Part shown: positions 3,985 through 54,186 of the stretch, one piece after another | How the letters are laid out: every line of letters starts with the position of its first letter | How positions within the stretch are numbered: the first letter of the stretch is position 1 | Assembly: GCF_001570885.1 (NCBI RefSeq) | Contig: NZ_BCSN01000008.1 | Span: 1 to 64,000, forward strand | Source: Micrococcus lylae NBRC 15355 | GTDB taxonomy: Bacteria > Actinomycetota > Actinomycetes > Actinomycetales > Micrococcaceae | DNA length: 64,000 nt | Direction: 5' to 3' | Notes under the pieces: generated by a model | Seen by the model: only the letters and a program-made list of their open reading frames with translations | What the model was told of the DNA's origin: nothing | Databases searched by the model: none | Position numbers and translations under genes: made by a program

Positions 3985-4123
3985 GGGGATCCTTCCGGTC
4001 GTCGGCCACAGGCACGGGCGACGGACGCGCGGCGGGGAGGCGGCCGTCGTCGTGGTGTCCATGGTGCGCCCGGCCCAGGGGGCTCGGCAGGCCGGAAGGT
4101 CGTGCGAGGTCACGCAGGGGCGG

Positions 4124-4158
4124 CCGGGCCCCGCAGCCTGCGCGGCTGCGGGGCCCGG
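4124..4158 (-). terminator. Strong hairpin in the metY leader (attenuator/terminator candidate)
   Basis: Perfect 15-bp stem, CCGGGCCCCGCAGCC pairing with GGCTGCGGGGCCCGG around a 5-nt loop, 140 nt upstream of the metY start and downstream of the C-rich hairpin element on the same strand. There is no clear T-tract, as is usual in this GC range. It could end a stand-alone small RNA or attenuate metY. Confidence 0.55.
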
Positions 4159-4175
4159 GAGGGGGTCCTGGACAG

Positions 4176-4290
4176 GCGGACGCCCCGGTGCCGACCGCGC
4201 GAGGGGGTACGCATGGTGGTCGACGCCGGGGCGTCCGCTTTTCAGTTGTCCATCATCACTCGCACCTTGATGAGGCGTCTACGACGCTAG
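4176..4290 (-). ncRNA. Leader/small-RNA-like element, copy A (tetrapeptide ORF plus C-rich hairpin)
   Basis: Read on the minus strand: a -10-like TAGCGT (4284-4289), the ribosome site AAGGTG (4263-4268), the tiny ORF MMDN-stop (4242-4256), then a 13-bp stem (4226-4238 with 4176-4188) enclosing GCGTACCCCCTCGCGC. Copy B at 5398-5511 has the same order of parts, near-identical promoter and ORF-start sequence, and a stem of different sequence that still pairs, which indicates RNA-level conservation. The C-rich loop recalls actinobacterial 6C RNA, but the architecture differs. The element lies upstream of metY, so it could be cis-acting or an independent small RNA. Confidence 0.5.
4242..4256 (-). 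CDS. Tetrapeptide leader ORF (MMDN), copy A
   Basis: ATG ATG GAC AAC TGA, with AAGGTG six bases upstream of the ATG. The ribosome site and spacer are identical in copy B (5464-5478), which encodes MNHN. Translation is inferred only from this conserved arrangement; the peptide sequence itself is not conserved beyond the first Met and last Asn. Confidence 0.35.
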   Translation of the reverse strand: MMDN

Positions 4291-4380
4291 GCGGTCACCC
4301 TTGAGGCTCTCGCAAACGAGCCTGGTCATTGCCTGGCGGTCCGGATGTCGAGTGATCTGCGTCTCAATTGTTGGAACCGC

Positions 4381-5199
4381 TCAGCCGGGCCAGGCAGTGA
4401 TCCAGAGGACCGCCGGCAGGCCGACGGCGAACACCAGGACGAAGCCCCGGTAGAGGCGCCGACCGCCCGGAGAGCCGATGTTCACGGTGGTCCCCACTCC
4501 GTAGCCCTCGCGCTTGTTCACCACGATGTTCGGCTCATCCGGGTCGTTCATCATGCCGGTGGCGGTCCAGCGTTCCTCCTCCGCCCGCTCCTGGGCAGAC
4601 GCATGGTGCCCCAGCTCGGTGGCGACGTCCTCGGACCAGCGGCGCCAGTGCCGCATGGACAGGGACAGGGCCGCGAACACGCCCACCATGACCACGGTGA
4701 AGACCAGGGGCATCAGCCACCAGGGCAGCCCGGCGGTGCGTCCGAGCAGGACGTGCACGGTGGTCGGGGCCGCGGCGAGCAGTATCAGCAGGCTGATCCA
4801 GCCCAGCGCGGAGACCATGCCGAAGTGCAGGCCGTGGCCGCGTACGCGCGCCCAGCCGGAGCGGTCCTGCGGGGTGGTGGACAGGGACGGGGCGAGGGCT
4901 GCGACGGCGGCCAGGGCGGCGGCGCTGCCCAGGCCGATGAGCGCTCCCTGGGCCACAGCGCCGAAGGACGTGCCCGCCCAGGCGTCCGGGGACCCGCTCG
5001 GGCCCCAGTGCGTCGGGATCTGCTCCGGCAGGCCCGGCAGGGCGAGGAACACCCACGCGACGAGGGCGAGGCCCAGGGCGGCGGTGACGACGAACGGCAG
5101 CCACGCCTTCGGCCTGGCCCTGCGGACGAGGCGACGCTCCTGCCTCTGGAGGCGGCCGTCGTCGGGGGAGCCGGGGGCGTGCGGCGGCTGGTGGGTCAT
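4381..5199 (-). CDS. DUF1648/DUF5808 multi-spanning membrane protein (SdpI-like)
   Basis: 272 residues from the ATG at 5199, preceded by AGGGGAGA about ten bases upstream. An N-terminal soluble tail leads to a first membrane helix (WLPFVVTAALGLALVAW), then the DUF1648 signature QIPTHWGPSGSPD, at least five further hydrophobic helices and a C-terminal DUF5808-like segment with GYGVGTTVN. DUF1648 occurs in SdpI-type immunity proteins and in small membrane proteins near GntR regulators; the function of this solitary actinobacterial form is unknown. Element copy B lies upstream on the same strand and may belong to its 5' region. Confidence 0.7.
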   Translation of the reverse strand: MTHQPPHAPGSPDDGRLQRQERRLVRRARPKAWLPFVVTAALGLALVAWVFLALPGLPEQIPTHWGPSGSPDAWAGTSFGAVAQGALIGLGSAAALAAVAALAPSLSTTPQDRSGWARVRGHGLHFGMVSALGWISLLILLAAAPTTVHVLLGRTAGLPWWLMPLVFTVVMVGVFAALSLSMRHWRRWSEDVATELGHHASAQERAEEERWTATGMMNDPDEPNIVVNKREGYGVGTTVNIGSPGGRRLYRGFVLVFAVGLPAVLWITAWPG

Positions 5200-5397
5200 C
5201 GGTAGAAGTCTCCCCTCGGGGCCGCGGCGCTGCGGCCGGATCTCATCGGGGCCTGGTCTCAACGGGCTGGTGGCCTACGAGTCTATCGAGGGGGGTCCAT
5301 GAGGGCTGCGGAAGTTCCGCGCCTGTAGAGGTGCGGGGCCCGCAGAGGTGCCGCGCCTGCAGGGCGCGGTGCCTGCGCGCGGCCCGGCCCCGGACGT

Positions 5398-5511
5398 GCA
5401 GAGCCCCGGGCTCGGTCGCGTGAGGGGGACGCGTTGATGATCGAGGCCCGGGGCTTCTGCTGTTCAGTTGTGATTCATCACTCGCACCTTGATGAGGCGT
5501 GTTCCACGCTA
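5398..5511 (-). ncRNA. Leader/small-RNA-like element, copy B (tetrapeptide ORF plus C-rich hairpin)
   Basis: Minus-strand order matches copy A: TAGCGT (5506-5511), AAGGTG, ORF MNHN-stop (5464-5478), then a long stem (5442-5460 with 5398-5414) whose inner hairpin CGCGT-ccccctc-ACGCG exposes the C-rich loop. Stem bases differ from copy A in both arms while pairing is kept. A small hairpin CCGCGCC-tgca-GGGCGCGG around 5351-5370 may end the transcript. It sits about 200 nt upstream of the DUF1648 gene and just downstream of the MFS gene. Confidence 0.5.
5464..5478 (-). CDS. Tetrapeptide leader ORF (MNHN), copy B
   Basis: ATG AAT CAC AAC TGA with the same AAGGTG ribosome site and six-base spacer as copy A. 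Its existence as a translated ORF is inferred from this parallel. Confidence 0.35.
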   Translation of the reverse strand: MNHN

Positions 5512-5641
5512 GGGGGCGGCCCTGACCGGAGGCGCAGACGCCGCTGGGCGTTCTCTGGCCGTTGCGTTGCGCTTCGATCACATCGTGACGTGCGCCACGA
5601 TCGGCTCGTGGCCACTGGGCTGTGCGGAGTGTCAGGCCGCG

Positions 5642-7129
5642 TCAGTGGGCGTCTGCGGCCTCGTTCGAGGAGCGCTTCACGAACCAGACGGCCACCACGT
5701 TGAGGCTGAACACGCAGGCGCCCGCCAGCAGGGCCAGGTGCACACCGTCCATGGTGGCGGCGACCTGGTCCGAGCCGCGGGCGGCGGACCCGGCCGTGCC
5801 CACGGTCAGCAGGGTGATGAACAGAGCGGTGCCGGCGGCCGCCGCCACCTGCTGGAGGGTGGACAGCAGCGCCGAACCGTGCGCGTAGAGGCGGCGTGGC
5901 AGAGAGGACAGGGCGGTGGTCATCAGCGGGGAGAACATCATGGACAGGCCCACGCTCATGACGATGTGCAGGGTGATCACGAACGCCGCCGTGGACTGCG
6001 GGGAGAGGAACGTGTAGCCCCAGAGCGCACCGGCGGCCAGCAGCGAGCCCGGGATGAGCAGGGGACGGGGCCCCACCCGGTCGTAGAGGTTGCCGACCAC
6101 GTAGCCGAGGACGGCCATCGCGGCACCGCCGGGCAGCAGGGCCAGGCCGGATTCCTGAGTGGTCCAGCCGAGGACCTGCTGGAAGTACATCGGCAGCAGG
6201 ATGATGACGCCGAACAGGGACATCATCGTCACGAGCATGCAGCACAGGGCCGTGGCATAGGTGGGCCGGGCGAGCGTGCGCAGGTCCAGCAGGGCGTCGT
6301 CCCCGAGGCGCACCTGCCGGTAGGCGAAGAACGCGAGGAACACGGCGCCGGCGGCGAGCGGGATCCATGGGGCGACCGGCGCGTGACCGCCGGCGGCCTC
6401 GCCGATGCTGGACAGGCCGAAGATCAGGCCGCCGAAGCCGAGCGCGCACAGCACGCCGGAGAAGCCGTCCAGGCGGATCTTCTCCGGCTCCGTGACGTTG
6501 CGGACCCACAGGGCGCCGGCCACCAGGGCGGCCAGGGCGATGGGGAACACGGCGCCGAACATCCAGCGCCACGTCAGGTGCTCCAGGATCACGCCGCCCA
6601 CGGTGGGCCCGGCGGCCGGTGCGACTGCGATGACGATCGAGATGATGCCCATGACCCGGCCGCGACGGGAGACGGGGACCACGTTCAGCACGGTGGTCAT
6701 CAGCAGCGGCATCATGATGGCCGTGCCGACGGCCTGGACGACGCGCCCGGCCAGCAGGACCGAGAACAGCGGGGCCAGGCCGGCCACCACGGTGCCGATC
6801 GTGAACGTGCTCATCGCGAAGACGAACACCTGCCGCACCGTGAACCGGTTCATCACCCACCCGGTGAACGGGATCACCACCGCCATGGTCAGCATGAAAC
6901 CGGTGGACAGCCACTGTGCGGTGGCGGCGGAGACCGAGAACTCGGCCATCAGCCGCGGCAGTGCCACGGACATGATGGTCTCGTTGAGGATCACCACGAA
7001 GGCCGCGGACACGAGCAGGCCGATGAGGCGGCCGGTGCCGGGGGCGAGGGTGACGGGGACGGGGCCGGTGGGCAGGGAGTGGGCGGAGGACTGCGCGTCG
7101 GTGCCCGGCTGCGCCTGGCCGGCGGTCAT
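5642..7129 (-). CDS. MFS drug exporter, DHA2 (EmrB/QacA) type, 14 predicted helices
   Basis: 495 residues. Membrane helices run through the whole length. Family motifs include the early LNETIMSVALPRLMAEF segment (motif D1 type, with an Asn-Glu pair in helix 1), WLSTGFMLTMAVVIPFTG and GRVVQAVGTAIMMPLL (motif B region), as in DHA2 proton-driven multidrug exporters. The ATG at 7129 has no ribosome site of its own. It overlaps the stop of a 32-codon ORF (7126-7224), so translation is probably coupled. Substrate unknown. The C-terminus runs into the region of RNA-like element copy B. Confidence 0.85.
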   Translation of the reverse strand: MTAGQAQPGTDAQSSAHSLPTGPVPVTLAPGTGRLIGLLVSAAFVVILNETIMSVALPRLMAEFSVSAATAQWLSTGFMLTMAVVIPFTGWVMNRFTVRQVFVFAMSTFTIGTVVAGLAPLFSVLLAGRVVQAVGTAIMMPLLMTTVLNVVPVSRRGRVMGIISIVIAVAPAAGPTVGGVILEHLTWRWMFGAVFPIALAALVAGALWVRNVTEPEKIRLDGFSGVLCALGFGGLIFGLSSIGEAAGGHAPVAPWIPLAAGAVFLAFFAYRQVRLGDDALLDLRTLARPTYATALCCMLVTMMSLFGVIILLPMYFQQVLGWTTQESGLALLPGGAAMAVLGYVVGNLYDRVGPRPLLIPGSLLAAGALWGYTFLSPQSTAAFVITLHIVMSVGLSMMFSPLMTTALSSLPRRLYAHGSALLSTLQQVAAAAGTALFITLLTVGTAGSAARGSDQVAATMDGVHLALLAGACVFSLNVVAVWFVKRSSNEAADAH

Positions 7130-11819: not shown

Positions 11820-12009
11820 TGCGCGCGTCCACGGTAGGCCCGCGGTGTGCCGCAGACGCGGTGCCGGTCCGGCTGGTGGGCGTGGACGCGTTGCGCCAGG
11901 TCATCTGGGCGGCGCCGACGGACGACGCCCGTCCGGCGAGGGTGTCCATGACGGACGTGAGGCGGCTGCCTTCCGTGGCCGGGCGGGGCCGTGCTGTGCT
12001 GTGGCCGAC

Positions 12010-12108
12010 CCATCCAGAGCGGCCGAGAGATCCGGATCGACGACGCCGCAGCAACCCCCTCATCCCTGCCCGGCAGGGTCGGGACGGTGCTACCGCCGGG
12101 ACCGATGG
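12010..12108 (+). promoter_or_regulatory. SAM-I (S-box) riboswitch candidate upstream of the sulfur operon
   Basis: P1 arms CCATC and GATGG enclose CGAGAGATCCGG, the S-box core CGACGCCGCAGCAACC and GGTGCTACCGCC. AAGGAG follows within a few bases of the 3' P1 strand, so P1 formation could mask the start region. High SAM would lower expression of the monooxygenase/importer operon. Confidence 0.9.
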
Positions 12109-12122
12109 AAAGGAGCCCGCGC

Positions 12123-53915: not shown

Positions 53916-53978
53916 CGTCAGGCTCCTCGGTGTGCGGGCCGGAGACGCCGTGCGGCGCATGGCTCCGGGGAAAGTGAA

Positions 53979-54066
53979 GGCCCCCCACGCACCTGCCAGA
54001 GCCCACCTACCCTTGCTACCTTCCGGTCCTGGGGGAGTTCAGCGAGATGACACCACGTGAGGGGCC
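53979..54066 (-). ncRNA. ffs: Bacterial small signal recognition particle RNA (4.5S-type)
   Basis: The minus strand carries the conserved SRP domain IV: CCAGGACCGGAAGGTAGCAA, followed by GGGTAGGTGGGC, closed by a terminal helix (GGCCCC at 54061-54066 with GGGGCC at 53979-53984). About 88 nt, the bacterial small type. TAGACT at 54074-54079 is a good -10. It pairs with Ffh to target membrane proteins. Position next to dnaX/recR is typical. Confidence 0.93.
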
Positions 54067-54186
54067 GTCGATGAGTCTAGCAGTGAACCGGGGGGCGAGC
54101 GATTCAGTGGTCGATTGGCGTCGTCGGGAATCTGTGGTGTAGGCTCATCTGTGCCCTTGGCCGGTTCGCCGGCAAGGGCGAGCCAA

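Follow-up and report, generated by a model that had tools for sequence, protein, structure and literature searches.

A multicopy family of predicted small regulatory RNA genes with a dedicated promoter in Micrococcaceae

Introduction

A contig of Micrococcus lylae NBRC 15355 (NZ_BCSN01000008.1) carries two closely related elements, which raises the question of whether they are leaders of the genes that follow them or genes in their own right. The window analysed here is the stretch of 64,000 nucleotides from position 1 of this contig. An earlier note, made from the sequence alone, had described both elements as leaders in which a tetrapeptide reading frame (MMDN or MNHN) precedes a hairpin with a C-rich loop, upstream of metY and a DUF1648 gene. 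On comparative sequence evidence, both elements are members of an apparently undescribed multicopy family of predicted small regulatory RNA genes of the Micrococcaceae.

Results

Two elements on the minus strand

The earlier note gave no strand; both elements read from the minus strand, and inspection of the sequence recovered every feature attributed to them: TAGCGT, AAGGTG-N6-ATG, the two reading frames, the long stems and the C-rich loops (Table 1). The 21-mer CTCATCAAGGTGCGAGTGATG is identical in the two copies and is preceded by TAGCGT in each, and both read AAGGTG-CGAGTG-ATG. The hairpin arms differ in sequence between the copies and pairing is kept; the folding z-scores are -5.4 for copy 1 and -4.1 for copy 2, with no shuffled sequence equally stable. 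The neighbouring genes are as the earlier note named them, with a metY-like gene (PF01053) and a gene for a DUF1648 protein (PF07853) downstream of the elements. Same-strand genes begin ~190 nt downstream of both copies, and read-through into them may be possible.

Between copy 1 and metY is another very strong hairpin, CGGGCCCCGCAGCC...GGCTGCGGGGCCCG, preceded by GACCCCCTCC; this hairpin may serve as an additional terminator or as a structure in the metY leader. Elsewhere the window holds a bacterial small SRP RNA and a SAM (S-box) riboswitch; the gene 3' of the riboswitch is acyl-CoA-dehydrogenase-like and is accompanied by a luciferase-like monooxygenase (names assigned by eye), an arrangement that looks like a sulfur-scavenging operon.

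Table 1 Features of the two elements and other structured RNAs in the window.
Feature	Position	Strand	Basis
Copy 1 direct-repeat box CCAGGCAATGACCAGG, CAG-N8-CAG, 11-bp spacing, probable response-regulator site	4321..4336	-	Motif counts and promoter-only search
Copy 1 -10 box TAGCGT	4284..4289	-	TANNNT at fixed distance
Copy 1 predicted small RNA gene, predicted 5' end ~4276, terminator end ~4176	4176..4276	-	Covariance models: R1 71.3 bits, E 1.2e-11; R2 70.8 bits, E 1.6e-13
Copy 1 conserved 5' module CTCATCAAGGTGCGAGTGATG	4254..4274	-	Near-invariant AAGGTGYGAGTGAT in 87 distinct copies
Copy 1 MMDN reading frame	4242..4256	-	Subtype of Micrococcus; not conserved family-wide
Copy 1 covarying GC-rich hairpin/terminator	4176..4238	-	Folding, pair counts
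Copy 1 C-rich loop ACCCCCTC	4208-4201	-	Predicted loop accessibility 0.91
Copy 2 direct-repeat box CCAGAGAACGCCCAGC, probable response-regulator site	5543..5558	-	Motif counts and promoter-only search
Copy 2 -10 box TAGCGT	5506..5511	-	TANNNT at fixed distance
Copy 2 predicted small RNA gene, predicted 5' end near 5498	5398..5498	-	Covariance models: R1 68.3 bits, E 5.4e-11; R2 67.1 bits, E 1.2e-12
Copy 2 conserved 5' module CTCATCAAGGTGCGAGTGATG	5476..5496	-	21-mer search, alignment
Copy 2 MNHN reading frame	5464..5478	-	Not conserved family-wide
Copy 2 covarying hairpin/terminator	5398..5460	-	Folding, pair counts
Copy 2 C-rich loop TCCCCCTC, GCGT-CCCCCTC-ACGC	5429-5422	-	Predicted loop accessibility 1.00
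Second strong hairpin, CGGGCCCCGCAGCC...GGCTGCGGGGCCCG	4110-4160	-	
SAM (S-box) riboswitch	12007-12111	+	Just above gathering score
Bacterial small SRP RNA	53973-54069	-	66.2 bits

Extent of the family

The 21-mer occurs four times in the M. lylae genome and a fifth copy was located by covariance model only (G000:C74:3336-3412), giving five copies in total. Allowing up to two mismatches, it was matched in 5 of 10 other Micrococcus genomes. Named GTDB genomes carry its central 21 bases in 17 stretches, each from a member of the Micrococcaceae (Micrococcus, Citricoccus, Auritidibacter, Arthrobacter CAU 1506 and another Micrococcaceae bacterium). This recurrence is well in excess of chance.

The earlier note had proposed a covariance model and a search of related genomes. 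A model built on 18 copies (R1) matched 89 of 197 Micrococcaceae genomes, including 11 of 11 from the genus Micrococcus, with zero matches in genomes from other families of the order. A second model (R2), built on 99 matches (alignment A4), matched 173 of the 197 genomes, spread over 31 of 32 genera and carrying 1-9 copies apiece. Since R2 was trained on R1 matches from the same genomes, this count measures extent and the genomes outside the family serve as the specificity control. Among the latter (~295 genomes of the class), R2 gave three marginal matches only, all judged on inspection to be chance: one resembles coding sequence (L141), one is a terminator and nothing more (L142), and the third has a core-like stretch with an unconvincing remainder (L143).

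The family appears to be undescribed, in agreement with the earlier note. Rfam 15, searched with E values up to 10 at seven loci with copies, returned unrelated or chance matches only, none of them at the elements. The 6C model (RF01066) had no match at the elements or anywhere in the M. lylae genome, and 6C and the other Rfam families were thus ruled out as the identity of these RNAs. Our search of the literature on the core sequence and on small RNAs of these genera, which covered the main texts of open-access papers, found no description. With further copies found and no Rfam family matched, two of the outcomes that the earlier note had named as refuting did not arise.

Tandem copies lie 170-280 bp apart and each has its own promoter and hairpin. 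At one locus (L005), a segment comprising the 3' end of a thymidine kinase gene, a terminator-like hairpin and the small RNA gene is duplicated 2.4 kb apart (4010-4260 and 6350-6680); such segment duplication can be one route for copy-number growth. Decay is seen as well. Core repeats GGTGCGAG, GGTGCGAGTGAG and GGGGCGAGTGATGA are found without a hairpin downstream of the fifth copy (L104 3480-3530), and one copy (L151, G004:C15:1912-1964) has an intact promoter and core, lacks the terminator hairpin and is seemingly a decaying gene. Two copies without annotation are plasmid-borne, in Citricoccus SGAir0253 (L145 2530-2599) and on pTC1 of Paenarthrobacter aurescens TC1 (L146 2515-2601), which is typed as a conjugative plasmid. 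The phage and viral sequences searched contained zero copies, and a phage or viral origin was therefore dropped.

Structure and conserved 5' module

Each copy consists of an 11-bp direct repeat, a -10 box, a 5' module and a terminator hairpin. Alignment of 87 distinct copies shows a predicted RNA that starts at (A/G)CCUC with a near-invariant module, (A/G)CCUCWUS-AAGGUGYGAGUGAU. A linker that varies among copies separates this module from the GC-rich hairpin, and lower-GC genera have T-rich tails 3' of the hairpin.

The earlier proposal that compensatory changes reflect a selected RNA structure is borne out by this alignment. Across the 87 distinct rows, pairing holds in 98.2% of alignment cells, and changes on both sides are seen for 20 of the 24 pairs, compared with 13.9 in shuffles; sliding the partner strand lowers pairing to 33-53% of cells. 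Double-sided covariation is confined to the terminator hairpin. For a 5' hairpin, ACCU:AGGU, 98.3% of cells still pair, with one-sided changes only, and its predicted pairing ranges from 0 to 0.93 among copies; this stem is plausible and the predicted 5' fold uncertain. A different 5' stem suggested by RNAalifold, UCAUCA:UGAUGA, was rejected: although 93.2% of its cells pair, divergent copies break several of its pairs.

The hairpin of many lineages carries an apical YCCCCUC loop, which stays constant as the closing stem changes (GCGU/ACGC, AGUGU/ACACU, GACGU/ACGUC) and which, in the Citricoccus plasmid copy, appears as UCCCCUC directly within a simple terminator loop. In predicted ensembles the loop is unpaired at 0.87-1.00, as anticipated for a loop exposed for pairing. 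It is absent from most Micrococcus copies and from several other lineages, and thus cannot be the universal active part; the part common to the family is the 5' module.

We propose that the module base pairs with mRNAs (see Discussion), and weighed this against two readings in which it is recognised as a ribosome-binding site. The module could mimic such a site (AGGUG-N6-AU[G], in many cases duplicated) and so engage the 30S subunit or a protein recognising ribosome-binding sites, with the C-rich loop mimicking the anti-Shine-Dalgarno sequence. We consider this unlikely; if true, a multicopy RNA under response-regulator control would tune translation globally across a whole bacterial family. 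Decidedly unlikely is a decoy, whose AAGGUG-N6-AUG-like module would titrate 30S subunits or an RNA-binding protein and would not be an antisense seed. The likeness of the module to a ribosome-binding site fits such a decoy, as do its near-invariance and the tandem duplication of a 15-nt unit, AGGTGCGAGTGATGA, in several copies. No perfect complement to any 12-nt stretch of the core exists in the M. lylae genome outside the RNA genes themselves, which also favours a decoy over antisense pairing; the one-mismatch complements inspected by eye lie mostly inside coding sequence. However, 27 of 87 copies lack the AUG while keeping the remainder of the module, and the 6-nt spacer is conserved as strongly as the Shine-Dalgarno-like part, a constraint that ribosome binding alone does not need.

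Reading frames and downstream genes

The tetrapeptide reading frame did not hold up as a working part of the elements. ATT, ATA or ATC replaces the start codon in 27 of the 87 distinct copies, and where a start is present the frame runs from 2 to >100 codons. A conserved leader peptide, sought across all 87, is ruled out by this variation in start codon and length. MMDN and MNHN are restricted to a subtype of Micrococcus. MMDN-like peptides are confined to four Micrococcus copies, of which three follow the same MFS-like gene and the remaining one is window copy 1.

The leader role is likewise unsupported, given the genes that follow. In 45 of 75 copies the nearest gene downstream is encoded on the opposite strand, and in 30 on the same strand. 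These genes were called by a simple codon-composition finder, which may err in individual cases, and copies that are close relatives do not count as independent. The neighbours vary from copy to copy and include genes for thymidine kinase, CN hydrolase, alpha/beta hydrolase, an S4-domain protein and a metallo-beta-lactamase fold, among others. A same-strand gene for an S4-domain RNA-binding protein stands downstream of a copy in a single genus and in Micrococcus terreus (L037, L044, L045, L047, L048, L101, L016), which may be simple synteny.

These data bear on a cis-acting attenuator, in which the tiny frame would be translated in the metY or DUF1648 leader and the position of the ribosome would set termination at the hairpin. 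Viewed by themselves, the window copies suit this well, with a Shine-Dalgarno-like AAGGTG, a 6-nt spacer and an ATG in each, and a same-strand gene a short distance downstream. Across the family it is very improbable, since loss of the start, varying frame length and opposite-strand downstream genes leave neither cis-attenuation nor a conserved upstream frame supported, and a cis leader was rejected on the orientation of those genes.

A predicted promoter nearly exclusive to the RNA gene

Upstream of 64 of 77 distinct copies we found CAG-N8-CAG, for which shuffles gave an expectation of 0.34 and a maximum of 3, and all 77 have TANNNT at -10 at a fixed distance (4.4 expected from shuffles). Weaker half-sites follow in 11-bp steps at -37 and -26, so that the -35 region is covered. 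A search of 11 genomes with the promoter pattern alone returned 19 sites, 18 of which lead into the RNA core, while the nineteenth adjoins a TetR-like gene (by eye). As the pattern was derived from these same promoters, the result speaks for near-exclusivity to the RNA and not for generality; within the 11 genomes, it shows a predicted promoter that is nearly exclusive to the RNA gene.

Repeats of 11 bp are used by PhoP and also by other OmpR-family regulators. In M. tuberculosis, PhoP sites consist of 7-bp TCACAGC motifs with a 4-bp spacer and are extendable to tetramers (PMC4832192), and the direct-repeat box has the same layout of 7 bp, 4-bp spacer and 7 bp. The promoter suggests a two-component signal.

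With its own promoter and its own terminator, independent of its neighbours, each copy is organised as expected of a trans-acting small RNA gene, judged by sequence. The least probable reading of all is that the copies are not RNA genes and act at the level of DNA, as dispersed repeats, recombination sites or small mobile elements. Copies are multiple, some within duplicated segments and some plasmid-borne, which fits this reading. Against it, the promoter-to-core spacing is fixed, the hairpin covaries with both arms changing and is followed by T-tails, transposases are absent beside the copies examined, and the phage sequences searched hold no copy.

Discussion

Very probably, the two elements are separate genes for trans-acting small RNAs that an OmpR/PhoP-type regulator activates and that pair with mRNAs by means of the 5' module and, where present, the C-rich loop. 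Each gene would give a short untranslated RNA of ~65-115 nt. An OmpR/PhoP-type response regulator would bind the phased CAG half-sites, at 11-bp spacing over the -35 region, and recruit RNA polymerase to the TANNNT -10 box. The RNA would begin at (A/G)CCU, which could form a short 5' hairpin with AGGU, and would then present the invariant stretch GYGAGUGAU, ending in the GC-rich terminator hairpin with, in many lineages, its C-rich apical loop. Several mRNAs would most likely be controlled by base pairing through the 5' module, and the C-rich loop, where present, would pair with G-rich ribosome-binding sites. The dose would rise with the number of copies (1-9) and with duplication in tandem.

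The small RNAs RsaE, LhrC, Qrr and the cuckoo RNAs are short, independently transcribed and often multicopy, with exposed C-rich or conserved pairing regions; the new family is alike in style, whereas phyla, sequences and promoters differ. Closer to hand is 6C/B11 (RF01066), an actinobacterial small RNA whose C-rich hairpin loops pair with G-rich stretches of mRNAs or 5' UTRs (PMC8628891, PMC10470900). The earlier note had named it as the nearest in style, and the likeness holds for an actinobacterial RNA with a C-rich hairpin loop. However, 6C has two hairpins with six-cytosine runs, whereas copies of the new family have at most one C-rich loop, in the terminator (alignment A4), and the conserved 5' module sets them apart from 6C. 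Mcr7 of M. tuberculosis is reported to be induced by PhoP (PMC8628891), an OmpR-family regulator with TCACAGC-N4-TCACAGC sites (PMC4832192), so that PhoP-driven expression of a small RNA has an actinobacterial precedent. Compared by description only, Mcr7 is listed as 350-400 nt from one locus, versus a predicted multicopy RNA of ~65-115 nt here. Actinobacterial leaders with an upstream frame, such as the ilvB-II motif of Corynebacterium (PMC10272879), resemble the two window copies in having a Shine-Dalgarno sequence and a very short frame near a hairpin, but the new family has neither a conserved peptide nor a fixed downstream gene.

Two large surveys of structured RNAs do not mention these genera in their main texts, and one of them, a recent one, states that it favoured low-GC genomes. 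The RNA is apparently undescribed, yet 31 of the 32 Micrococcaceae genera sampled have it (Micrococcus, relatives of Arthrobacter, Citricoccus and others), with as many as nine copies and a dedicated promoter. The family offers an entry point to small RNA regulation in a high-GC group, and the hint of a two-component signal in its promoter makes the signal, the regulator and the targets directly testable.
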